Made by a program: the position numbers and the translations under genes
Notes under the pieces: model-generated
The model's input: only the letters and a program-made list of their open reading frames with translations
Databases searched by the model: none
Told to the model about the DNA's origin: nothing
NCBI RefSeq assembly: GCF_020552705.1
Contig: NZ_JAJBZG010000002.1
Coordinates: 310,001 to 374,000, forward strand
Length of the DNA stretch: 64,000 nucleotides
DNA from: Christiangramia sediminis
Lineage (GTDB): Bacteria; Bacteroidota; Bacteroidia; Flavobacteriales; Flavobacteriaceae
Reading direction: 5' to 3'
Shown: positions 5,843 to 20,813 of the stretch, in pieces
Numbering within the stretch: the stretch's first letter is position 1
Layout of the letters: every line of letters starts with the position of its first letter

Positions 5843-8281
5843 CTAAAATTTATAAGTCAGCGCTGCTGCAAAATTTCTGGGAGCCTGCGGATTGATAGTT
5901 GACCAACCGTTGAAATAATCTTCGTTGGTAAGATTATTTAATTTGAGATTGATAGAAAATTTATCTACATCATAGAAAACCGCTGCGTTCAAGACTGTAT
6001 AGGATGGCAGGGTAAAAGTCCCGGCAGTATTCCTGTTAAATATCATATTTTCACTGGCATAATTTCCTCCAAATCCAATTCCAAAACCTTCAGCAATACC
6101 AGAGGTCAATCTATAACTGGCCCATAGGTTGGCAAGAGTTTCCGGTCCGGCAGATTCTGGTCTCCTTCCAAGAAAATCATCATTTGCGGCAGCTTCAGTA
6201 ACCTCACTGTCATTATGACTAAAACCTGCAACCAAATTCAGTCCGTCCACCGGGCTGGCCGTTAACCTTGCTTCAAAACCACGGCTGTATTGGGTCCCAT
6301 CCTGGGTAACTTCTATACCGCTACCTAAAACAATATTTTCAACTTGAATATCATAATAACTTAAGGTTGCGAAAACTCGGCCATTGAAAAAGTTAAGTTT
6401 TGTTCCTACTTCAAATTGAGTCGCATGTTCCGGGTCAAAAGTGATCCTTTGAGATTGTTGGGTTTCCTGATCAATAACTTCTGTAGGAGCCACATTACTA
6501 AAACCATCCATATAATTGGCAAATATCGATATCTTATCAATAATTGGCTGATACACTACACCAAATTTAGGAGAAAGCGCTGTCTGGCTGTTACTATCAT
6601 TTTCAAACTGATCTATTCTTAAACTGGCCATTGCAGATAACGCTGGAGTTATATTAAGAACATTAGAAACATAGGCACTGTAAAAGTCTTCCTTAGTAAT
6701 ACTGTTATTTCTAGCAGTATTTTGCAATAAACCATCAACGGCAGCTGTAGAAAGGATTCCGCTATCACCATTTGTTATGTAGTTTTCCTCTTCCGTAATT
6801 CCAAAAACACTTTCATTTACGTTTTGCAGACTGGCATTTCCTAAGTAAACCTGTCCGTTACCCACATATCCGCTGCCATTATCAATTATTTCCCTTTGAA
6901 AATAATCAAGACCGGCCACCATTCTGTTTCTCATTCCGAAGATCTCAAAATCACCGATAAAATTTTGCTGAAGATCTGTGGTTAGCGTAGTTGAATTTTG
7001 ATTATTCATAAATCTTGTAAAAACAACTCCTTCTTCCAGGCCTTCGGTAAACCTCGTAGATTCATATAAATAAGAGTAGTATCCTTTAGATTTCGCACTA
7101 CCACGTGAGATAACGGTTTGTGAGGTCCAGTTGTCTGACAATTCATAATTCATCTGTCCCTGGAGGCTGTATGTAGGATTCTCTAGCGTAAGGTCATTAC
7201 TAGTGTAAGACCTGTTCGTATTATAGTTCAATTCTTCAATATTGGTAGCTGTTAGAGGGGCACCCCTGTCTACAAAAAGCATGGTTGGATTTGTAGATTC
7301 CCCATTAAAGAATTCAGTATTTACAAAAAATGAAAGCCTGTCATTCACTTTATATTTTAGCGAGGGCGCCACGAAGAAAGATTTGGAAAAACCGGCATCC
7401 TGAAAAGAGTTCCTGGTTTGATACGCAGTATTTACACGCAAAGCTACATCACCTTCCTCATCAAGCGGAGTATTCACATCTGCCGCAACTCTGTTAAGAC
7501 CAAAACTGCCCAGAGTATAGCTTATATTTCCGCCGAAATATTCATATGGTTTTTTGGTGGTGATATTTATCAAACCTCCATAGGAAATAAGGCTGCTCCC
7601 GTATAGCGTACCCGATGGGCCTTTAATAACTTCTATATTTTCAATATTGGCAGGATCGGGGCTTCCATTGGTAAGGGCGGGAAGACCGTTTACCAGGCTA
7701 GGCTGCACGGGAAATCCTCTTAGAGCATAGTACCCGGCTCCATCTCCTCCCCGACCGGTAGATTCCCAAAGCTTGGTGATCCCGGAACTATTTTTCAAAG
7801 CATCATCAAAATTGGTAACAATTTGCTCGCTGAGAATTTCCGCGGTAATATTATCGTACACCTGAGGATTTTCAATATTTTTTAGAGGTAATTTGGAAAC
7901 ATATACACTTTTTTCGCGGTTAAACTTATTAGCATTTCCATTTCCTCGGATTAGTACTTCAGAGAGTTGCTCTTCTCCAGATTTTAGAGTGATATTAGGA
8001 AGACTGGTAGTTTCACCTGCCTTTACAGAGAAAGCTATCTCCTGAGATTTGTAACCCACATAAGAAATCCTTAAAAGATAATTGCCTACAGGAACATTCT
8101 CAATCTTAAAAGAACCATCTTCAAGGGTTTCGGTTCCTATTTCTGTGCCCTGAATATTGATATTAGCTTCAGAAATTCCATTAGCATCTACAGTGGTAAC
8201 TTTACCCTGAAGACTTCCGGAATTTTGTGCAAAACCGGCATAAGTAAAAAGCAAAGCGATGAGTAGTATTTTTTGATACAT
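5843..8281 (-). CDS. TonB-dependent siderophore receptor with carboxypeptidase-regulatory-like N-domain
   Basis: Outer-membrane transporter of 812 residues. A signal peptide (about 1-18, ending YAGFAQ) is followed by a carboxypeptidase-D regulatory-like beta domain (about 22-108), a plug domain (about 130-260, with GYYALRGFP, VEVIKGPSGTLYGSS-like signature and LINITTKKP), and a 22-strand barrel ending in the aromatic terminal residue AALTYKF. The RGFP and KGPSGTLYG signatures place it in the siderophore (FhuA/FhuE/FecA-like) branch and not the SusC glycan branch. It is followed by a PepSY membrane protein, supporting ferric-siderophore import. The ligand is not predictable. A promoter box and a candidate Fur site lie directly upstream. 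Confidence 0.93.
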   Translation of the reverse strand: MYQKILLIALLFTYAGFAQNSGSLQGKVTTVDANGISEANINIQGTEIGTETLEDGSFKIENVPVGNYLLRISYVGYKSQEIAFSVKAGETTSLPNITLKSGEEQLSEVLIRGNGNANKFNREKSVYVSKLPLKNIENPQVYDNITAEILSEQIVTNFDDALKNSSGITKLWESTGRGGDGAGYYALRGFPVQPSLVNGLPALTNGSPDPANIENIEVIKGPSGTLYGSSLISYGGLINITTKKPYEYFGGNISYTLGSFGLNRVAADVNTPLDEEGDVALRVNTAYQTRNSFQDAGFSKSFFVAPSLKYKVNDRLSFFVNTEFFNGESTNPTMLFVDRGAPLTATNIEELNYNTNRSYTSNDLTLENPTYSLQGQMNYELSDNWTSQTVISRGSAKSKGYYSYLYESTRFTEGLEEGVVFTRFMNNQNSTTLTTDLQQNFIGDFEIFGMRNRMVAGLDYFQREIIDNGSGYVGNGQVYLGNASLQNVNESVFGITEEENYITNGDSGILSTAAVDGLLQNTARNNSITKEDFYSAYVSNVLNITPALSAMASLRIDQFENDSNSQTALSPKFGVVYQPIIDKISIFANYMDGFSNVAPTEVIDQETQQSQRITFDPEHATQFEVGTKLNFFNGRVFATLSYYDIQVENIVLGSGIEVTQDGTQYSRGFEARLTASPVDGLNLVAGFSHNDSEVTEAAANDDFLGRRPESAGPETLANLWASYRLTSGIAEGFGIGFGGNYASENMIFNRNTAGTFTLPSYTVLNAAVFYDVDKFSINLKLNNLTNEDYFNGWSTINPQAPRNFAAALTYKF

Positions 8282-8295
8282 TATAAGTTTAAATT

Positions 8296-8316
8296 TATTT
8301 AGACTGATTACAAATA
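8296..8316 (-). promoter_or_regulatory. Candidate Fur-type operator upstream of the siderophore receptor
   Basis: An imperfect 21-bp palindrome with 5-bp arms TATTT and AAATA (plus strand TATTTAGACTGATTACAAATA split at its centre) lies 15-35 bases upstream of the receptor ATG, right at the predicted transcription start. Its place downstream of the -7 box fits iron-dependent repression. The assignment to Fur is inference from gene function. Confidence 0.4.
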
Positions 8317-8322
8317 GAAGTG

Positions 8323-8330
8323 CAAATCTA
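8323..8330 (-). promoter_or_regulatory. -7 promoter box for the siderophore receptor
   Basis: The minus strand reads TAGATTTG, an exact TAnnTTTG match, 42 bases upstream of the ATG. No TTG is seen at the expected -33 distance. Confidence 0.5.
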
Positions 8331-8469
8331 AACTTGAGAGTTGAGAATTAAAAGCCTATTTAGAATTATTTTAAATAAAATTAATGAAAAGACTGTATTT
8401 CAAATATTTATAAACACCAAGAATAGGTATTCGTTATAACCGGAATGTGAAATTTAATATGGAATTAAT

Positions 8470-8498
8470 TTGATTGACTAAGGTTTCGGTTACTTTTG
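8470..8498 (+). promoter_or_regulatory. Promoter for the HAD hydrolase gene
   Basis: TTG at 8470-8472, an 18-bp spacer, then TACTTTTG at 8491-8498, matching TTG-N(17-23)-TAnnTTTG. A possible TTG start codon at 8496 falls inside the -7 box, so translation must start later, at the ATG 8517. Confidence 0.65.
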
Positions 8499-8516
8499 AG
8501 CTTTCAAATTAATACT

Positions 8517-9311
8517 ATGATCAAACTTATTGTAACCGACGTTGACGGAACTTTGTTGAATGATAATCACGAGTTACATCCAGATTTCTGGAAAGTAGAA
8601 GAACAACTAACCAAAAAAGGGATTCTTTTCTCTATCGCCAGCGGTCGGCAATTCTATAATCTGGAAGCGAGGTTTGAAAAGATCAAAGATCGAACAATGT
8701 TCTTTGCTGAGAATGGAACTTATGTTTCGCATAAAGGAAAGGAATTATACGTGAATCCTATAGAAAAAACTGCCGCGATAGAATTTATAAAACTCGGCCG
8801 GAACCTGGAAAATACTCATCTGGTCTTATGCGGAAAAGATTCCGCATATATTGAAACGAATGACGAAGAATTCCAGAAAGAGATCTCGAAATTCTATGAA
8901 CGTCTAAAAGTTGTAGACGATCTAACTCAGGTAGAAGACACTTACTTAAAAGTGACCCTTTGTAATTTTGACGGGGTTGAAAATAACACCTTCCCGCATT
9001 TTGTAAATTATACTGATAGATTCAAAGTTGCAATTGCTGCGAAAGTTTTTATCGATATCACTGCTCTCGATGCGAACAAAGGAAACGCGATTAGAGATAT
9101 TCAAAAAGAACTAAATATTACCCCGGAAGAAACCCTGGTTTTTGGTGACTATCTTAATGATCTCGAAATGATGAAGGTGGCAAAACATAGCTATGCCATG
9201 AAAAATGCCCATCCGGAAATTTTACAGGCAAGTAATTTTGTGACCACCCATGATAATAATGATAATGGGGTTCTTAGAACTATTGAATCTCTTGGTTTAT
9301 TGAAGGCCTAA
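8517..9311 (+). CDS. Cof-type HAD-superfamily phosphatase
   Basis: Cytosolic phosphatase of 264 residues in the Cof/YidA class, which dephosphorylates sugar phosphates and related metabolites, including flavin and PLP precursors in some members. Motif I is DVDGTLL with nucleophile D8 and acid D10; motif II lies at SIASGRQF; motif III lysine is in DANKG; motif IV is FGDYLNDLEM. The large alpha/beta cap (about 85-190) is of the C2B kind. The ATG at 8517 is chosen because the upstream TTG lies within the promoter. It ends with a four-base overlap with the convergent gene. Substrate unknown. Confidence 0.9.
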   Translation: MIKLIVTDVDGTLLNDNHELHPDFWKVEEQLTKKGILFSIASGRQFYNLEARFEKIKDRTMFFAENGTYVSHKGKELYVNPIEKTAAIEFIKLGRNLENTHLVLCGKDSAYIETNDEEFQKEISKFYERLKVVDDLTQVEDTYLKVTLCNFDGVENNTFPHFVNYTDRFKVAIAAKVFIDITALDANKGNAIRDIQKELNITPEETLVFGDYLNDLEMMKVAKHSYAMKNAHPEILQASNFVTTHDNNDNGVLRTIESLGLLKA

Positions 9312-14078: not shown

Positions 14079-14086
14079 AGTTGAAT

Positions 14087-14422
14087 ATGGGCGTTACTAA
14101 AACAGATTTATTTACACAGGAACAAAACGAGCTGGCGAATTTAGCTAAAGCCTTTGCACATCCTGCTCGTGTAGCCATTCTCCAGTATCTATTAGCATCT
14201 AATAAATGTATAAATGGAGACCTCGTAAATGAATTAGGGCTGGCCCAGGCAACCATTAGTCAGCATTTAAGAGAACTAAAAAATATAGGCCTTATTCAGG
14301 GTAATATTGAAGGTGCTTCCATGAGCTATTGTATAAATCCTGAAAAATGGCAGAGTGTACAACAACTTTTTAATGGCATGTTCGATCAAATTGAAAACTG
14401 TGACCCGGGCGAATGCTGCTAA
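14087..14422 (+). CDS. arsR: ArsR-family metalloregulator
   Basis: A 111-residue winged-helix repressor. The HTH core is LANLAKAFAHPARVAILQYL then ELGLAQATISQHLRELKNIGLI (about 16-75). Cysteines at about 41 (NKC), 82 (SYC) and the C-terminal CDPGECC cluster (about 104-111) could form the As(III) or metal sensor; their arrangement differs from the ELCVCDL type of E. coli ArsR and belongs to a C-terminal-cysteine type. ATG at 14087 is preferred to TTG at 14081. It leads an operon with DUF6428, arsenate reductase and ACR3 genes and should repress it until arsenite binds. Confidence 0.9.
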   Translation: MGVTKTDLFTQEQNELANLAKAFAHPARVAILQYLLASNKCINGDLVNELGLAQATISQHLRELKNIGLIQGNIEGASMSYCINPEKWQSVQQLFNGMFDQIENCDPGECC

Positions 14423-14440
14423 AAAAATTTAATAAATAAC

Positions 14441-14456
14441 ATCGTAATAATACGAT
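14441..14456. promoter_or_regulatory. Candidate ArsR operator 2
   Basis: ATCGTAATAATACGAT is a 16-bp dyad with arms ATCGTA and TACGAT, in the 49-bp gap between arsR and the DUF6428 gene; a further CGAT follows at 14461. It shares ATCGTAATA with the site ahead of arsR. This suggests a second regulated promoter for the resistance genes themselves. Confidence 0.5.
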
Positions 14457-14471
14457 AAAACGATAACCCTT

Positions 14472-14936
14472 ATGAAACTTTCAGAATTTACTAATCAGTT
14501 ATCCAGATTAAGAGAAATCGCTTTCGAACTTCCAAACGGTAATTTGGTGCCGGAGCATTTTCACGTTACTGAAGTTGGAAAAATAAGCAAGTCTTTTATT
14601 GACTGTGGAGGAACTTTAAGAGATGAAGAAAAAGTGTCTTTTCAACTTTGGGAAGAAAACGATTATAACCACCGTCTACATCCGGATAAACTGATCAAGA
14701 TCATAGATCTGGCGAAAGATAAACTCCATTTACCAGACGCAGAGATCGAGGTGGAATATCAGGGAGAGAGTATTAATAAATTCAGTCTTGAATTCGACGG
14801 TAAGAACTTTCTTCTGGTCAACACCCAAACCGATTGTCTGGCCAGAGAAAAATGTGGTGTCCCGGCACAAAAACCAAAAATGAAATTATCTGAACTTCAA
14901 AATTCTGCCTGTTCTCCTAATTCAGGTTGCTGCTAA
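14472..14936 (+). CDS. DUF6428 family protein of arsenic operons
   Basis: A 154-residue soluble protein. I recognise it as the small protein found between arsR and the arsenate reductase in many Bacteroidota arsenic clusters (DUF6428); its function is not known. Visible features: HFHVTEVGKISKSFIDCGG (about 29-47) with H29, H31 and C45, an acidic middle, a conserved histidine pair (NHRLHPDKL, about 66-74), and a cysteine-rich tail with C127, C133, C146 and the terminal CC. Cysteine and histidine content fits As(III) handling, for instance as a metallochaperone, but this is inference. It lies 9 bp before the arsenate reductase gene. Confidence 0.75.
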   Translation: MKLSEFTNQLSRLREIAFELPNGNLVPEHFHVTEVGKISKSFIDCGGTLRDEEKVSFQLWEENDYNHRLHPDKLIKIIDLAKDKLHLPDAEIEVEYQGESINKFSLEFDGKNFLLVNTQTDCLAREKCGVPAQKPKMKLSELQNSACSPNSGCC

Positions 14937-14945
14937 AATCTATAT

Positions 14946-15563
14946 ATGTCACAGACAAACTTATATCCTGACTTAAAGAAAAAACTGGAAGTTTTAAATA
15001 AACTGGAAGTTCCTTCTTACCGCAAAGAAGTTCTAAATCCCCTGATCAATTTTATACAAAAGGAAAAAGACTCAGGAAATCAGATTCAACTCAATTTTAT
15101 CTGTACGCATAATTCCAGGCGCAGTCAGTTAGGACAGGTTTGGGCAAAGGCTATTTCAGCTCATAACGGGATAGACACCGACTGCTTTTCCGGCGGAACT
15201 GAAGAAACTGCCTTCTTTAAAAATGCCATCGATGCTTTAAGGAGAGCGGGATTCAGGATAAATTCTGAAGCAGGTGAAAATCCTCATTCTGAAGTTTTTT
15301 ATTCCGAAGAGCAAAAACCTGTGGTCTGCTACTCTAAAGTTTACGATGCTCCGGAAAATCCGTCTGAAAATTTTGCAGCGGTGATGACCTGTTCTCATGC
15401 CGATGAAAACTGTCCTTTTATTCCCGGTTCAAAAGCCAGGATAGCGCTGGATTATAATGATCCTAAAGAATTTGATGATACTCCCTTGGCAGAAAAGAAA
15501 TATAATGAACGCAGTGATCAGATCGGTTCAGAAATGATCTATGTATTTGAAAATATAAAATAG
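14946..15563 (+). CDS. arsC: Arsenate reductase of the low-molecular-weight phosphatase type
   Basis: Cytosolic enzyme of 205 residues predicted to reduce arsenate to arsenite. The P-loop CTHNSRRS runs from C53 to S60 (C-x5-R-S with R59), followed by a second cysteine pair C149 and C156 (TCSHADENC) that would relay the disulfide, and an aspartate-rich [10 protein letters not shown] loop (about 169-178). This is the thioredoxin-coupled ArsC layout, with an N-terminal extension of about 45 residues before the P-loop, as in Bacteroidota homologues often labelled protein-tyrosine-phosphatase. Its place between DUF6428 and the arsenite pump supports the arsenate role. It ends one base before the acr3 ATG. 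Confidence 0.88.
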
Positions 15564-15564
15564 C

Positions 15565-16611
15565 ATGGCAAAAAAACTAAATTACCTGGATAAGAATCTC
15601 ACGTTATGGATCTTTCTGGCCATGGGTCTGGGGGTGGGATTAGGTTATTTAATTCCCTCAATTCCTGAAAACATAAATTCTTATAGCTCCGGAACCACCA
15701 ATATCCCTATTGCTATAGGCCTTATTCTAATGATGTATCCTCCATTGGCCAAGGTAAAATACAGGTTGTTGCCGAAAGTCTTTAAAAATGTAAAGATTTT
15801 AAGCATCTCGCTGGTTCTAAACTGGATCATAGGACCATTTTTAATGTTCTTTCTGGCAATACTATTTCTGCAGGATCATCCTGAATATATGGTTGGACTA
15901 ATCCTAATTGGGCTGGCCCGTTGTATCGCTATGGTTCTGGTCTGGAATGACCTTGCCGAAGGCAGCAGCGAATATGGCGCAGGACTGGTCGCACTTAATA
16001 GTATCTTCCAGGTTTTTGCCTATAGCTTTTATGCATGGCTGTTTATAACCTGGCTTCCGCCTCTTTTCGGATTTGATGGTGCCATTGTAGATATTTCAAT
16101 CGCTACCATTGCTGAAAGTGTAGCAATTTATCTTGGAATTCCTTTTGCCCTAGGCATCCTTAGCCGAGTAATATTAGTGAAACTAAAAGGCGAAAACTGG
16201 TATGAGAACAAATTTATTCCCACCATATCTCCATTGACCCTTATTGCGCTGCTATTTACCATAATTCTTATGTTCTCATTAAAAGGGGAACTTATCGTAG
16301 AGATCCCAATGGATGTTGTTAGAATTGCCATTCCGTTATTGATCTATTTCAGCCTGATGTTTCTTATAAGTTTCTTTTTAAGCAAAGCTCTGGGCGCTTC
16401 TTACGAAAAGAATGCTTCTATATCTTTCACCGCTGCAGGAAACAATTTTGAACTAGCCATCGCGGTGGCTATTGCGATATTCGGCTTGAACAGTGGTCAG
16501 GCATTTACAGGGGTTATTGGCCCACTGGTAGAAGTTCCAGCACTGATATTACTGGTAAGAGTATCTTTCTGGTTAAGGAAAAAGTTTTATAGAGATCTGG
16601 CAAAAACATAA
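15565..16611 (+). CDS. arsB: ACR3-family arsenite efflux permease
   Basis: Inner-membrane As(OH)3 exporter of 348 residues with ten predicted membrane segments. The two functional residues of ACR3 are in place: C120 in [14 protein letters not shown] (about 118-131) and E323 in [10 protein letters not shown] (about 319-328). The NNFELAIA stretch near 293-300 is the family's second discontinuous-helix region. It is the last gene of the arsR-DUF6428-arsC-ACR3 operon and starts one base after arsC. The symbol arsB is used in the broad sense; the protein is ACR3, not the ArsB NhaD-like antiporter. Confidence 0.93.
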
Positions 16612-16618
16612 TTTAAGA

Positions 16619-17107
16619 TCATATAGAAGCGAGCAGGGATTCGAGATCCAAAGCACGGGTATACATATTCAAAGTATCATCTTCATTTTGAGGCCATTCT
16701 TCTCTCGGTTTATCCCAGTATAGTTCTATTCCATTCCCATCAGGATCATCAAGGTAGATCGCTTCTGAAACCCCATGATCTGCAGCACCGGAAAGCGGAT
16801 AGGCCTTTTCAAAAAGCCTTTTCACTACTGCTGCAAGATCCTTTCTTGTTGGATAAAGAATCGCGGCATGGAACAAACCTACGCCAGATTTTGAGGCTTT
16901 GTCTCCTCCTTCGCTATGCCAGGTATTTAGTCCAATATGATGATGGTAGCCTCCTGCGGAAAGAAAAACAGCCTGATCTCCCATTCTTTGGGTGATCTCA
17001 AAACCCAGGATATCCCTGTAAAATTTCAGAGCTTTTTCAATATTGGAAACTTTTAAATGTACGTGGCCAATTCTGGTTTCAGCAGGAACTTTATACTTAT
17101 AAGACAT
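16619..17107 (-). CDS. VOC-family (glyoxalase/extradiol dioxygenase fold) protein
   Basis: A 162-residue protein of the vicinal oxygen chelate superfamily, closest in style to CatE/YfiE-like proteins. GHVHLKVSNIEKALKFYRDILGF (about 14-36, shown in part as RIGHVHLKV) gives the first metal histidine, the second module has GLFHAAILYPTRKDL (about 77-91), and GNGIELYWDK (about 124-133) provides the final glutamate ligand. The catalysed reaction is unknown. It is convergent with the arsenite pump gene (7 bp between stops), so it is not in the arsenic operon, though some VOC proteins (ArsI) do act on organoarsenicals; the CC-ligand pair of ArsI is absent here. Confidence 0.82.
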   Translation of the reverse strand: MSYKYKVPAETRIGHVHLKVSNIEKALKFYRDILGFEITQRMGDQAVFLSAGGYHHHIGLNTWHSEGGDKASKSGVGLFHAAILYPTRKDLAAVVKRLFEKAYPLSGAADHGVSEAIYLDDPDGNGIELYWDKPREEWPQNEDDTLNMYTRALDLESLLASI

Positions 17108-17158
17108 GGTTTTTTTCTTTAAATTTAAGTAAGATTTATTTTAATTAATAAGAACATC

Positions 17159-17659
17159 ATGGAAGATAAGAACAAACCAGATTGGACAAGCTTCACCGTT
17201 AATCTTCCTCTGGATCAACCAAAGGAAAAAATTATTAATTCCTGGATGTCCCAGAACGAACTTGAAAAATGGTTTCTAAAACTTGCAGAATTTAGAACTT
17301 CTAAGGGAGAGATTCGTAAAAGACAGGAAGTATTTCATCCCGGCGACACCTACAGGTGGCAATGGTTTGGCTGGCCGGAAAGCGTAGAAGAGCATGGAGA
17401 AATCTTAAAACCCAAAGAAGGTGAGTTTTTAAGATTCATTTTTGGTAAAGCAGGCACAGTTGCCGTTAAGATTGTTGAGGAGAACAAACAGACCGTATTA
17501 AAACTAACTCAGGAAAATATTCCTGTGGACGAACATTCTAAAATGAATTTTTACGTAGGTTGTAAAACAGGCTGGACCTTTTATATGCTGAATCTTAAAT
17601 CTAACCTTCAGTCCGGGCCCGATCTTAGAAATAAACGCAGTGAATTGCAGATGGACTGA
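17159..17659 (+). CDS. SRPBCC/AHSA1-like hydrophobic-ligand domain protein
   Basis: A 166-residue soluble protein of the START/AHSA1 helix-grip fold. The opening strand FTVNLPLDQPKEKIINSWM (about 12-30), the WFLKLAEF turn, and the strand series HPGDTYRWQWFGW and EFLRFIFG through TVLKLTQEN and the C-terminal helix (about 125-160, GCKTGWTFYMLNL) match family topology. Members bind small hydrophobic ligands; no specific role can be assigned. It is divergent from the VOC gene with about 50 bp between starts. Just after its stop is an 8-bp inverted repeat (17652-17659 and 17679-17686) with no T run. Confidence 0.78.
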   Translation: MEDKNKPDWTSFTVNLPLDQPKEKIINSWMSQNELEKWFLKLAEFRTSKGEIRKRQEVFHPGDTYRWQWFGWPESVEEHGEILKPKEGEFLRFIFGKAGTVAVKIVEENKQTVLKLTQENIPVDEHSKMNFYVGCKTGWTFYMLNLKSNLQSGPDLRNKRSELQMD

Positions 17660-17690
17660 TTTAGCTTACGTCTAAAATTCAGTCCACCCT

Positions 17691-17765
17691 ATGAAAATTA
17701 GAGAATTAGAACTTCTGATTTTTTTGGAATATTATAACTTTTCAAAAACTTCAAATCTTCTATAA
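17691..17765 (+). pseudogene. Possible remnant of a LysR-type regulator N-terminus
   Basis: A 24-codon frame, MKIRELELLIFLEYYNFSKT then SNLL and a stop, resembles the opening of the LysR helix-turn-helix domain (x-x-R-x-L-x-x-F...NFSKA-x-x-L). Nothing recognisable follows in any frame before the next gene at 17809. It may be a decayed fragment or chance. Confidence 0.2.
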
Positions 17766-17808
17766 AATTATAGATTTAGATTCCGAAAATTAACCTAACA
17801 GAATCTAG

Positions 17809-19095
17809 ATGAAAAAAGTTCTTGCAGTAATAGCAATACTTTTAATTGTATTCATTGTGCTTATTTACTGGTCGGTTTCCAGTACGAATAAAGAATTTAA
17901 AACCTGTGAAATAAAGAGTTTCGAAGACCTGGAAAATATCGATTTTAGAAAGCATGATTCTGTGTTGCTTGCTCCCAATAGTCTCTACGAAGGAAATATT
18001 CTGAAAGAATTTATGCAGGGAGAGAACTACAGAAAAACCTGGGCGACTCCTATTCAGTTTCCTATTGTATTTCTGGACACTTTAAAGGGCGGACTAACAA
18101 TTCTAAAAGAAGGAGGCGGAAAGCAAACTCATTCCCTCAAACTGGTAAATCCTCAAGGCATCACCTTTACCCTGAGGAGCGTAGCAAAAGATCCCCAAAA
18201 ATTAATTCCGGAAATAGCAGAAGATCTCGGTCTGGAAAATATTATAGTAGATGGGATTTCTGCACAACATCCTTATGGCGCTATTCTAGCCGCTAAACTT
18301 TCAGAAATTGTAGGTGTCTTACACACACATCCATCTATGTACTTTCTTCCAAAACAGGATTTGCTCGGAAAGTATAATGAGAAGTACGGGAACCGTTTAT
18401 ATCTCCTGGAATATGAAACTGAAAGTAAAAAGAACTGGACTTCTTACGAGAATGTAAATGAGATTATTGAAACAAAAGCCCTGCAGGAGCTAAAGCAAAA
18501 AGAAGGAAAGAATCTAAGTATAAACAGAGCGGCTTTGATAAGAACCCGTCTATTCGACCTGCTTATAGGAGATTGGGACCGGCATGCAGAACAATGGGGC
18601 TGGGTTTTAAAGGAAAACGAAGGTAAAATTGAAGCAATTCCTCTGGCCGGCGATCGCGATAACGCTTTTTTTAATCCTGGCGGGGTGATCCCTACCATCA
18701 TAACCAATAAAAATGTGGAACCGCTGGTAAGACCTTTCGAGATGAAAATTGATCATATGCCCGGGTTGGTGTATCCTTTCGACAGATATTTTCTTATAGA
18801 TACTCCAAAAGAGATTTATATAGAACAGGCCAAAGCGCTTCAAAATGCATTAACCAATGCCAAAATTGACGATTCTTTTAAAGTCTGGCCCAAAGAAATT
18901 TCAAAGCTAGACCGGGCAGAGATCAGTGAAAAGCTCAGAAGCAGAAGAGATCATCTCGTCGAATATGCCGAAGCATTTCAGTCTGTAATTCAGGAAAAAG
19001 GAAAGCTTAACGAAGCTCTAAAAGGATCGGAAAAAGCAGAAATTAGTCCCGAACTCCTCCCCTGTTTTGAATGTGGAGTAAATTCTTCAAATTAA
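17809..19095 (+). CDS. Membrane-anchored protein with Fam20/HipA-like kinase signature
   Basis: A 428-residue protein with one N-terminal membrane anchor (about 4-23), the rest probably periplasmic. The core has features of an atypical kinase fold: a glycine-rich segment GGGKQTHSL (102-110), a strand with FTLRS (120-124), a helix region, then LIGDWDRHAEQWGW (252-265) followed 16 residues later by LAGDRDNAF (279-287). The paired G-(N/D)-x-D-R-H and D-x-x-x-x-F motifs match in kind the catalytic loop and metal-binding motif of Fam20C and HipA. I also recall this domain at the C-terminus of some Bacteroidota surface metallophosphatases (knowledge, not checked). Function here is unproven; it could phosphorylate exported proteins or be a pseudokinase. 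A CFECG motif ends the chain. It stands alone ahead of a secreted esterase. Confidence 0.6.
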   Translation: MKKVLAVIAILLIVFIVLIYWSVSSTNKEFKTCEIKSFEDLENIDFRKHDSVLLAPNSLYEGNILKEFMQGENYRKTWATPIQFPIVFLDTLKGGLTILKEGGGKQTHSLKLVNPQGITFTLRSVAKDPQKLIPEIAEDLGLENIIVDGISAQHPYGAILAAKLSEIVGVLHTHPSMYFLPKQDLLGKYNEKYGNRLYLLEYETESKKNWTSYENVNEIIETKALQELKQKEGKNLSINRAALIRTRLFDLLIGDWDRHAEQWGWVLKENEGKIEAIPLAGDRDNAFFNPGGVIPTIITNKNVEPLVRPFEMKIDHMPGLVYPFDRYFLIDTPKEIYIEQAKALQNALTNAKIDDSFKVWPKEISKLDRAEISEKLRSRRDHLVEYAEAFQSVIQEKGKLNEALKGSEKAEISPELLPCFECGVNSSN

Positions 19096-19141
19096 TTTTT
19101 TAAGTTCTATTTTTGAAACAAGCATTTTAACCAGGCCATTC

Positions 19142-19948
19142 ATGAAGATAAAATTCACTTTTTTTATTCTAAGCATATTTATCAGCTTCAATTCAATTGC
19201 CCAAAGTACGGCTTCTTCAAATGTCAGCCATTTTGAAATTGAAGCGCCGCAGCTGGATATTATCAAAAAGATCTGGATCTATCTACCAAAAAGCTATAGC
19301 AATTCAGATAAAAGATATCCAGTGATCTATATGCACGATGCGCAAAATCTGTTCGATAACAAAACTTCTTTTGTGGGTGAATGGAAGGTAGATGAAGCTC
19401 TTGATAGTCCAGATTCTAAAGAAGCAATCATCGTGGGTATTGAACATGGCGGAGATAAAAGAATTGATGAATTAACTCCCTTTCCTCATGAAAAATATGG
19501 AGGAGGAAAAGCAAATGCCTATCTTGATTTTCTGCTTGAAAATTTGAAACCACATATTGACAGTACTTACAGAAGCTTACCGGGTTATGAAAATACCGGT
19601 ATTTTCGGTTCATCTTTAGGCGGACTTATCTCTTTCTACGCTGCTTTAAAATATCCGGAGAGCTTTGGGATGATTGGAGCCTACTCGCCTTCTTTCTGGT
19701 TCAATGATAAGATCTATGATTTTACTGAAGAAGCTGAATTAAACCCCAACACTAAATTTTACTTTTTAGCCGGTACTGCTGAATCTGAAGAGATGGTTCC
19801 TGACCTGAAAAAGATGATCGGTCTATTAATGGAAAAAGGAATGAAAACTGAAAATTTCAAGCTAAAGTACGTAGAAGGTGGCGAGCATAATGAAACGATG
19901 TGGAGCAAAAACTTTCCCGAAACCTATCTTTGGTTAATGCAGAAATAA
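19142..19948 (+). CDS. Secreted alpha/beta-hydrolase, enterochelin-esterase (IroE/Esterase D)-like
   Basis: A 268-residue exported esterase. The signal peptide spans about 1-20 (SFNSIAQ). The core shows YPVIYMHDAQNLF (about 59-71), the nucleophile elbow G156-S157-S158-L159-G160 with S158 as the probable nucleophile, and a C-terminal GGEHNETMW holding the likely catalytic histidine. The fold matches the putative-esterase family that includes siderophore esterases (Fes/IroE) and feruloyl or acetyl-xylan esterases. Its neighbours, a small NTF2-like secreted protein and a cupin, follow within 11 bp and 0 bp and probably share its transcript. Substrate not predictable. Confidence 0.82.
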   Translation: MKIKFTFFILSIFISFNSIAQSTASSNVSHFEIEAPQLDIIKKIWIYLPKSYSNSDKRYPVIYMHDAQNLFDNKTSFVGEWKVDEALDSPDSKEAIIVGIEHGGDKRIDELTPFPHEKYGGGKANAYLDFLLENLKPHIDSTYRSLPGYENTGIFGSSLGGLISFYAALKYPESFGMIGAYSPSFWFNDKIYDFTEEAELNPNTKFYFLAGTAESEEMVPDLKKMIGLLMEKGMKTENFKLKYVEGGEHNETMWSKNFPETYLWLMQK

Positions 19949-19958
19949 ATTATTCGAG

Positions 19959-20453
19959 ATGAAAAATATTCTTACCTGTCTAATCGCTCTTCATCTGTTC
20001 TATGCAATTTCTGCACAGGAAAGTCATGATTCCAATTTATTCAAACAACTCAAATCAAGAGATAGCCTGTTGTTTGATCTGGGATTCAATAAGTGTAAAA
20101 TTGAGGCATTTGAGATGTTTATAAGTGAAGATCTGGAATTCTATCACGACCAGGGCGGTTTAAGCAACAGTAAAGAAGATTTTTTAAATGCTGTTAAGAA
20201 AAATATTTGTGCAATTCCAGATAAGAAACCTATTAGAAAACTTATTCCTGAAAGCCTGGAAGTTTATCCTTTATATGAAAATGGTAAATTATATGGAGCG
20301 ATCCAGAAAGGGAATCACGATTTTTACATACAAGAACCAGATAAGGAAGTCTACAAAACCAGTTCGGCAAAATTCACCCATATTTGGATCCTTGTAAATA
20401 ATGAATGGATCTTAAAACGTGTTTTAAGTTACGATCACAAAAGTCCTGAATAA
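19959..20453 (+). CDS. Secreted NTF2-like (DUF4440) protein
   Basis: A 164-residue protein with a signal peptide (about 1-20, ending AISAQ) and an NTF2/SnoaL-type cone fold: LKSRDSLLFDLGFNKC (about 28-43), the SEDLEFYHDQGGLS strand-loop (about 52-65), a FLNAVKKNIC helix, and the final HIWILVNNEWILKRVLSYDHK strands. Such proteins may bind or isomerise small molecules, but this subgroup is uncharacterised. It lies 10 bp after the esterase and its stop is directly followed by the cupin ATG. Confidence 0.75.
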   Translation: MKNILTCLIALHLFYAISAQESHDSNLFKQLKSRDSLLFDLGFNKCKIEAFEMFISEDLEFYHDQGGLSNSKEDFLNAVKKNICAIPDKKPIRKLIPESLEVYPLYENGKLYGAIQKGNHDFYIQEPDKEVYKTSSAKFTHIWILVNNEWILKRVLSYDHKSPE

Positions 20454-20813
20454 ATGGAAAAAGTAAATGTAAATGAAAAATTTAAAATGTTCTCAGACCA
20501 CTGGAATCCAAGAATTGTGGGTGAACTTAATGGACAGCAGGTAAAACTGGCTAAACTTAAAGGCGAATTTATCTGGCACTCCCATGAAGCAGAAGATGAA
20601 ATGTTCTGGATCGTAAAAGGAAAGCTGAAAATTGAATTCAGAGATAGAACCGTGGAACTTCAGGAAAATGAATTTTTTATAGTGCCGCGTGGTGTTGAAC
20701 ACCGTCCCATTGCCGAAGAAGAAGTACAGGTAATGCTCTTTGAACCTGCTTCAACTCAACATACCGGAAAGGAAAAACATCAGCTTACCAATAATGATCA
20801 GAAACATCTTTAG
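20454..20813 (+). CDS. Small cupin-domain protein
   Basis: A single-domain cupin of 119 residues. Metal-site residues are seen in WHSHEAEDEMFWIVKGKLKIE: H41, H43 with E48, and the second histidine motif is FFIVPRGVEHRP (about 75-86). Such proteins can be dioxygenases, isomerases or binding proteins; no substrate is evident. Its ATG directly abuts the preceding stop (TAA-ATG), giving translational coupling with the esterase-NTF2 genes, which suggests a small metabolic unit. Confidence 0.82.
   Translation: MEKVNVNEKFKMFSDHWNPRIVGELNGQQVKLAKLKGEFIWHSHEAEDEMFWIVKGKLKIEFRDRTVELQENEFFIVPRGVEHRPIAEEEVQVMLFEPASTQHTGKEKHQLTNNDQKHL

Follow-up and report, generated by a model that had tools for sequence, protein, structure and literature searches.

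A membrane-anchored protein of Christiangramia sediminis with a predicted kinase-like fold, and its relatives in Bacteroidota

The Fam20 secretory kinases work outside the cytoplasm and carry the residues D-R-H in the catalytic loop. In kinases, the active-site elements follow one another as glycine loop, β3, αC, catalytic loop and DFG motif; the fold also serves the transfer of AMP or glutamate, as in SelO and SidJ. According to the available part of a report on CotH (PMC7821199), this protein is distantly related to Fam20C and is a working kinase, of which the D228Q and D251A forms are inactive. A quite different group, the 'Metallo' subfamily of Omp85 proteins, combines PF00149 with an Omp85 barrel (Heinz and Lithgow 2014; PMC4104836). 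In the available portions of that paper, PF00149 is labelled a metalloprotease and the word 'kinase' does not appear; Metallo is there reported as conserved at genus level only, and 'noNterm' barrels as similar to the Metallo barrels.

Here we analyze a protein, P0001, encoded in a stretch of 64,000 nucleotides from Christiangramia sediminis (the window; NCBI RefSeq assembly GCF_020552705.1, contig NZ_JAJBZG010000002.1, positions 310,001 to 374,000). All P0001 features are given below in window coordinates and lie on the + strand. The protein is encoded by an intact 428-aa open reading frame at 17809–19095 and has an MKK start, some 20 hydrophobic residues and then a soluble domain. The hydrophobic stretch (residues about 4–23; 17818–17877) has a mean Kyte–Doolittle hydropathy of 3.05 over the 19 residues from residue 4, and residues 2–24 form a single helix in both structural models described below, which bears out the single N-terminal membrane anchor of a preliminary description of this DNA. 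Because MKK precedes the anchor, the positive-inside rule would place the N-terminus inside and the C-terminus outside. No significant Pfam or NCBIfam match was found for P0001, the best chance matches being TarH (E 0.013) and EbpS (E 0.23). The C-terminus carries the sequence CFEC (residues 419–422; 19063–19074), in a stretch modelled with low confidence; all 23 anchored relatives share this CxxC tail, as CFEC or CFDC, which might form a disulfide, bind a metal or serve for attachment.

Two AlphaFold2 models were obtained, one from 23 sequences (model 1; mean pLDDT 82, pTM 0.81) and one from 55 more diverse sequences (model 2; mean pLDDT 89, pTM 0.85). In Foldseek searches of the PDB, all matches with E up to 0.001 were kinase-like, six for model 1 and 17 for model 2. 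The top match for both was CtkA, the HipA-like kinase of Helicobacter pylori (PDB entries 3akj, 3akk and 3akl), with E values of 1.4e-6 and 1.2e-5, respectively; it was followed by HipA (4.5e-4) and CotH (1.1e-3) for model 1, and by HipA (3tpv, 1.3e-4) and type II phosphatidylinositol 4-kinase (PI4K-II, 2.4e-4) for model 2. The Foldseek TM-scores were modest, about 0.3–0.5, and we therefore read these as distant matches inside the kinase-like superfamily rather than as membership of the listed families. VIA-align, used as a second look at the candidates proposed by Foldseek, gave Z scores of 14.5 for CotH and 13.5 for PI4K-II with model 1. With model 2, the scores were 14.6 for PI4K-II beta (251 aligned residues, 4.4 Å), 14.2 for CotH (256, 4.3 Å), 13.2 for CtkA (234, 4.4 Å), 11.6 for actin-fragmin kinase, 11.2 for HipA (219, 4.7 Å) and 10.6 for the Golgi casein kinase (221, 4.8 Å); the Fam20 entries and the Golgi casein kinase together span 10.4–10.6. 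CotH and Fam20 are absent among the 50 Foldseek matches listed for model 2, but VIA-align does find them. Predicted viral proteins annotated as PI3/4-kinases or Ser/Thr kinases matched the P0001 model as well; the best match (E 2.5e-7), from an uncultured phage, is annotated as having a PI3/4-kinase domain. The predicted models thus display the two-lobe fold of the protein-kinase-like (PKL) superfamily, within residues about 82–397 (18052–18999), the range aligned in the structural comparisons; a kinase-like fold had already been proposed from the sequence, and the matches to CotH, CtkA, HipA, Fam20 and PI3/PI4 kinases agree with that proposal.

Three segments singled out earlier, GGGKQTHSL (102–110; 18112–18138), LIGDWDRHAEQWGW (252–265; 18562–18603) and LAGDRDNAF (279–287; 18643–18669), are indeed found at these positions, and their structural surroundings in model 2 resemble those of kinase motifs. 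Strands 97–103 and 108–113 flank GGGKQTHS, with GGG at 102–104, so that this segment takes the place of the glycine-rich loop. R123 lies at the end of strand 3 (119–124) and K127 just beyond it (18175–18189); in the place of the usual β3 Lys, they are candidates for binding the nucleotide phosphates. There follows an αC-like helix, 143–152 (18235–18264), bearing D148, a candidate partner of R123 and K127. Helix 240–253 runs into GDWDRHAEQ of the catalytic loop, where D257 is the candidate base, and strands 263–270 and 273–280 lead to GDRDNAF, the putative DFG-like metal-binding motif with D282 and D284. The order of these motifs is glycine loop, β3, αC, catalytic loop and DFG. In related kinases, an Asn of the catalytic loop stands where P0001 has Q262.

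Conservation was assessed in 148 aligned rows from 145 reading frames, after eight pieces shorter than 250 aa had been dropped; merging identical domains left 135 distinct ones, P0001 included. Two residues, D250 and R379, are present in 135/135 and D255 in 133/135. Among the putative active-site residues, K127 is kept in 132/135, R123 in 128/135, D148 in 129/135 (with E at that position in four), D257 in 127/135, H259 in 124/135, Q262 in 128/135, D282 in 129/135 and D284 in 128/135, and in the glycine loop G102 and G103 each in 129/135, Q106 in 125/135 and G104 in 107/135. All seven of R123, K127, D257, H259, Q262, D282 and D284 occur together in 121 domains; the other 14 depart in at least one of them, and no member of the anchored clade is among these. 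K105 is a lysine in 22 of the 135 domains, which rules it out as the catalytic lysine and leaves R123 and K127 as the candidate basic residues. The preliminary description had named K105 or R123 as residues that might line up with catalytic ones, and of these two R123 stays a candidate. An Arg as basic active-site residue has also been proposed for the predicted kinase Lani_1194 in the available part of PMC9758233.

For profile comparisons with hhalign, 54 family rows and 19 of 20 loci each for CotH and HipA were used; L066 and L083, of which the flanks are cut and which have no stop-free frame, were left out. GDWDRH and the D-R-D-x-A-F motif aligned with both motifs of CotH at a score of 34.6, compared with 23.0 for the best of 60 column permutations and 16.3 for the reversed profile; hhalign itself, however, assigns a probability of only 21%, with E 0.001. 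The corresponding score with HipA was 16.9, which 11 of 60 permutations reach, and CotH against HipA, as a yardstick, gave 19.3. When the family profile was searched against PDB sequences, CtkA again came first, with E 0.0034, or more weakly with a broader alignment (E 0.023); when CtkA is aligned without gaps, the second motif falls one residue out of register. The motif order, the secondary structure and the alignments with CotH and CtkA agree with the placing of D257 and of D282/D284 in the catalytic loop and the DFG-like motif put forward earlier.

P0001 resembles CotH (PF08757; PDB 5jd9 and 5jda) in fold and in the alignment of both motifs. Their identity in structural alignments is, however, 9–13%, and PF08757 matches neither P0001 at E up to 10 nor anything in the whole genome. 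CotH is a spore-coat protein, whereas P0001 is membrane-anchored and has relatives with a phosphoesterase and a barrel; we therefore speak of likeness to CotH and not of family membership. CtkA shows 12–15% identity to P0001, with a sequence alignment limited to the C-terminal part, and has Asn in the catalytic loop where P0001 has Gln. The HipA toxin kinases (PF07804) share the fold, with Z about 11, but not the sequence profile, where the comparison is no better than permutations, and PF07804 has no match in P0001 or in the whole genome. The PI4K-II enzymes, similar in fold at Z 13.2–14.6 over both models, have about 10% identity and are absent from the sequence-profile matches. Fam20 (5xoo, 5xom, 4kqa and 4kqb; Z 10.4–10.7 over both models) ranks below CotH, PI4K-II and CtkA, and the Fam20C Pfam profile is not among the four families matched by P0001 at E up to 10. 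Judging from the models, P0001 most likely belongs on the CotH/PI4K/CtkA-like side of the superfamily.

A sample of 247 Bacteroidota genomes gave the domain in 91, among them that of P0001. This genome holds three copies, P0001 and two large paralogs (L025 and L026), so that the 'single-gene candidate' of the preliminary description turns out to be a member of a large family, in its anchored branch. The scan of one genome per species and plasmid searches (five records) returned matches in Bacteroidota only. Classed by stop-to-stop frame length, 72 of the 135 domains lie in frames of about 1200–1370 aa, with some 360–500 residues ahead of the domain; 32 lie in frames of 855–963 aa, seven in frames of 502–586 aa and 24 in short ones. 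In the large examples tested, a calcineurin-like phosphoesterase precedes the domain and an Omp85-like barrel follows it. PF00149 scores above its cut-off in L025 and just below it in L019 (20.7 vs 21.5 bits), and Omp85 exceeds its Pfam threshold in both L019 and L020; the NCBIfam model Omp85_fam matches L025, L026, L019 and L020, each below its cut-off. In L026 (G000:C1:624699-625724), the kinase-like motifs are kept but PF00149 finds no match, and the phosphoesterase part seems to have degenerated. Across the class, both the GDNxY-like and the GNHD-like phosphoesterase patterns are kept in 62 of 72 large proteins, while in seven all four of the patterns tried are missing.

This make-up, a PF00149-type part and an Omp85-like barrel, is that of the Metallo proteins, and we infer that the large relatives are Metallo proteins (PMC4104836, in its available part) with a kinase-like domain in the middle, matched by make-up rather than by accession. 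The relatives of 855–963 aa would fit the noNterm group of the same available text (PMC4104836). The domain is phylum-wide in our sample, in contrast to the genus-level conservation given there for Metallo, and P0001, unlike Metallo, has neither PF00149 nor an Omp85 barrel. In one genome (G055, locus L100), the parts are encoded by three consecutive genes, one for the kinase-like part (545 aa), one for a protein with PF00149 (403 aa) and one for a protein with Omp85 (395 aa), the latter two both scoring above cut-off; 13 bases separate the genes at one junction, and at the other they overlap by four. This split version of the parts of the fusion supports a joint function. The genes upstream of the set (L100:6051-10097) resemble, by eye, ABC-transport genes.

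Some members of the family have degenerate motifs. Adjacent paralogs occur in two genomes of one genus (L097:5433-7055 and 7192-8778; L098:5126-10151), and in each case one with the degenerate catalytic loop GDWSRR stands beside intact copies, perhaps as a pseudokinase/kinase pair. L158 and L159 have ADFGKH in place of the catalytic-loop motif. In L172, L173 and L176, of the 855–963 aa class, the glycine loop is lost and RHY replaces DRD; to go by these residues, this group is likely non-catalytic. Fam20A is a pseudokinase partner of Fam20C, and the motif changes suggest that the degenerate paralogs may be pseudokinase partners too.

The scan of one genome per species yielded 23 relatives of P0001, 18 of which are in Christiangramia, Gramella or Salegentibacter, with 62–75% identity to P0001; 17 of these have the full or nearly full short form (423–430 aa), and L018 is a contig-edge piece. 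The five more distant relatives measure 362, 858, 864, 864 and 1220 aa. Within the genus, all 24 genomes examined have a match and 21 the full-length short form, including two (G255 and G264) in which the match extends beyond the terminal stop codon. As to the others, G266 has a contig-edge part of the anchored gene and G265, 73% complete, has no short form. In G253, a genome that is 99% complete, the anchored gene is a 50-residue remnant with a stop (G253:C1:2347039-2347188), from which it follows that the gene can be lost. The ratio dN/dS was 0.05–0.13 in those seven of nine anchored-clade pairs for which dS was measurable; in the other two, which include the gene of the window itself, dS was saturated. 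With relatives of the same form and low dN/dS elsewhere in the clade, the P0001 reading frame is more than chance.

In a quickly built tree, supported by SH-aLRT values without bootstrap, all 23 of the anchored short proteins fall into a single clade on a long stem (SH-aLRT 100), and this clade groups with 37 rows, 36 of them of the large class, at SH-aLRT 93, below the 95 mark. L022 is the one of the 24 short-class members outside the clade; long-branch warnings attach to L022 with L099 and to L170 with L174. In the phylum sample, all six genomes with the short form also carry at least one large protein. To judge by sequence, P0001 looks like a domain-only branch that has lost, or never had, the phosphoesterase and the barrel, and that retains its active site on an inner-membrane anchor.

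Inspection of the surroundings of the gene gave little indication of its role. The eight neighbours tested are ArsR, an LMWPc-like protein (below cut-off), an SBF transporter, a glyoxalase, AHSA1, an esterase, a DUF4440-like protein (below cut-off) and a cupin; neither a phosphoesterase of the PF00149 kind nor a HipB-like gene was found among them. Upstream, at 14081–16611, lie the genes for the ArsR regulator, the low-molecular-weight-phosphatase-like protein and the SBF-family transporter, probably for arsenic resistance. Of 13 Christiangramia/Gramella loci, 11 retain them, L013 being without them and L018 beginning inside the gene, but none of five Salegentibacter loci does. A conserved operon around P0001 is rejected on these counts, and the neighbours accordingly tell little about function. 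No RNA element reached the gathering score at 16500–20500. A phage origin was likewise rejected: the large paralog L025 has no match in the phages collection, and alignment A2 (P0001 and 54 others, thinned to less than 62% identity and chosen so as to exclude 13 rows with degenerate motifs) gave 55 pattern matches in viral_contigs, none of them confirmed. The best PHROGs match had E 0.037. The PADLOC family PDC-M03A showed weak matches to the catalytic loop, at best E 9.8e-6 over 33 residues, which is too short for P0001 to be filed as defence; the matched segment (residues 241–273; 18529–18627) is a hint of kinase-likeness in a candidate defence family. Riemerella OMP76 is considered unrelated, since the available part of PMC10281475 describes it as TonB-receptor-like. 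Among the matches listed from the open-licence literature, judged by title and start of abstract, none describes the domain.

The reading of P0001 as a phosphotransferase has its computed basis in the predicted fold, the order of the motifs, the conservation of the active site and the kinship with barrel fusions. With moderate confidence, and relying on the models, we regard it as an atypical PKL-fold phosphotransferase, held at the inner membrane by its anchor and with the catalytic domain in the periplasm, and it is probably active as an extracytoplasmic enzyme; the barrel-bearing relatives imply an extracytoplasmic location, in line with the periplasmic or surface one suggested in the preliminary description. 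In such an enzyme, a nucleotide with Mg would be bound between the lobes, beneath the GGGxQT loop, its phosphates held by R123 and/or K127, braced by D148. D257 would act as the base and D282, together with D284 and Q262, would hold the metal, and the phosphate would pass to an acceptor in the cell envelope, be it a protein, lipid or glycan. In the relatives, the calcineurin-like phosphoesterase, on the same chain or from the next gene, could remove the phosphate group, and the Omp85-type barrel would fix the kinase–phosphoesterase pair at the outer membrane; P0001 would then be the kinase-only, inner-membrane branch of this barrel-bearing family. The periplasm is presumably poor in ATP, which makes the phosphate donor the weakest point of the mechanism. 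The apparent replacement of the usual β3 Lys by Arg and of the loop Asn by Gln also counts against this reading.

The same features invite other explanations. A member of this family could phosphorylate a membrane lipid head group or a surface sugar, much as PI4K-II enzymes do with phosphoinositides. We hold this lipid or envelope-glycan kinase possible, though doubtful: PI4K-II tops the comparison with model 2, the forms inspected have a hydrophobic segment at the N-terminus or a barrel of the Omp85 type, and Legionella families that cluster with FAM20 and CotH may act on lipids, according to the available part of PMC9758233. However, the structural scores of PI4K-II and CotH are tied, the profile comparison, made with CotH and HipA only, beats permutations for CotH, and the rank of a fold does not tell the acceptor. 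A different chemistry on the same fold, whether the AMP transfer known from SelO or some other modification that depends on a nucleotide, would suit R123 and Q262, which are atypical in the way seen in non-kinase members of the fold. It appears unlikely to us, as both Asp motifs, taken as whole motifs, can be aligned with their counterparts in CotH, a working kinase (PMC7821199, in its available part).

P0001 might instead be a pseudokinase that binds a nucleotide or phosphorylated ligand for sensing or scaffolding. There is no obvious source of ATP in the periplasm, and degenerate paralogs exist, with GDWSRR in L097 and L098 and RHY in L172, L173 and L176; yet the anchored clade keeps all seven key residues, which mere binding need not require, and we consider a purely ligand-binding role improbable. 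That the fold is not a kinase fold at all and the motifs arose by chance would agree with the weak sequence matches to kinases and the silence of Pfam and NCBIfam, but it is very hard to reconcile with two AlphaFold2 models and two aligners that agree on kinase-like folds, and with a viral library that also yields predicted kinase proteins; we give it hardly any weight.

Beyond the phosphotransferase reading of P0001 itself, we put forward, tentatively and as an unlikely whole, a system of reversible extracytoplasmic phosphorylation in Bacteroidota. It would comprise a kinase and a phosphatase on one barrel protein or in split genes, P0001 as an inner-membrane, kinase-only copy and, in some genomes, pseudokinase copies, and it would target envelope proteins, lipids or glycans. 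The domain, without a Pfam or NCBIfam match in the proteins tested, is nonetheless present in more than a third of the Bacteroidota genomes sampled, and in proteins that resemble a described but unexplained Omp85 subfamily it takes up the region that separates the phosphoesterase from the barrel. Whether Bacteroidota carry out extracytoplasmic phosphorylation, and with which phosphate donor, has become a testable question; the findings on this family suggest that these bacteria may both attach phosphate groups and take them off again outside the cytoplasm.
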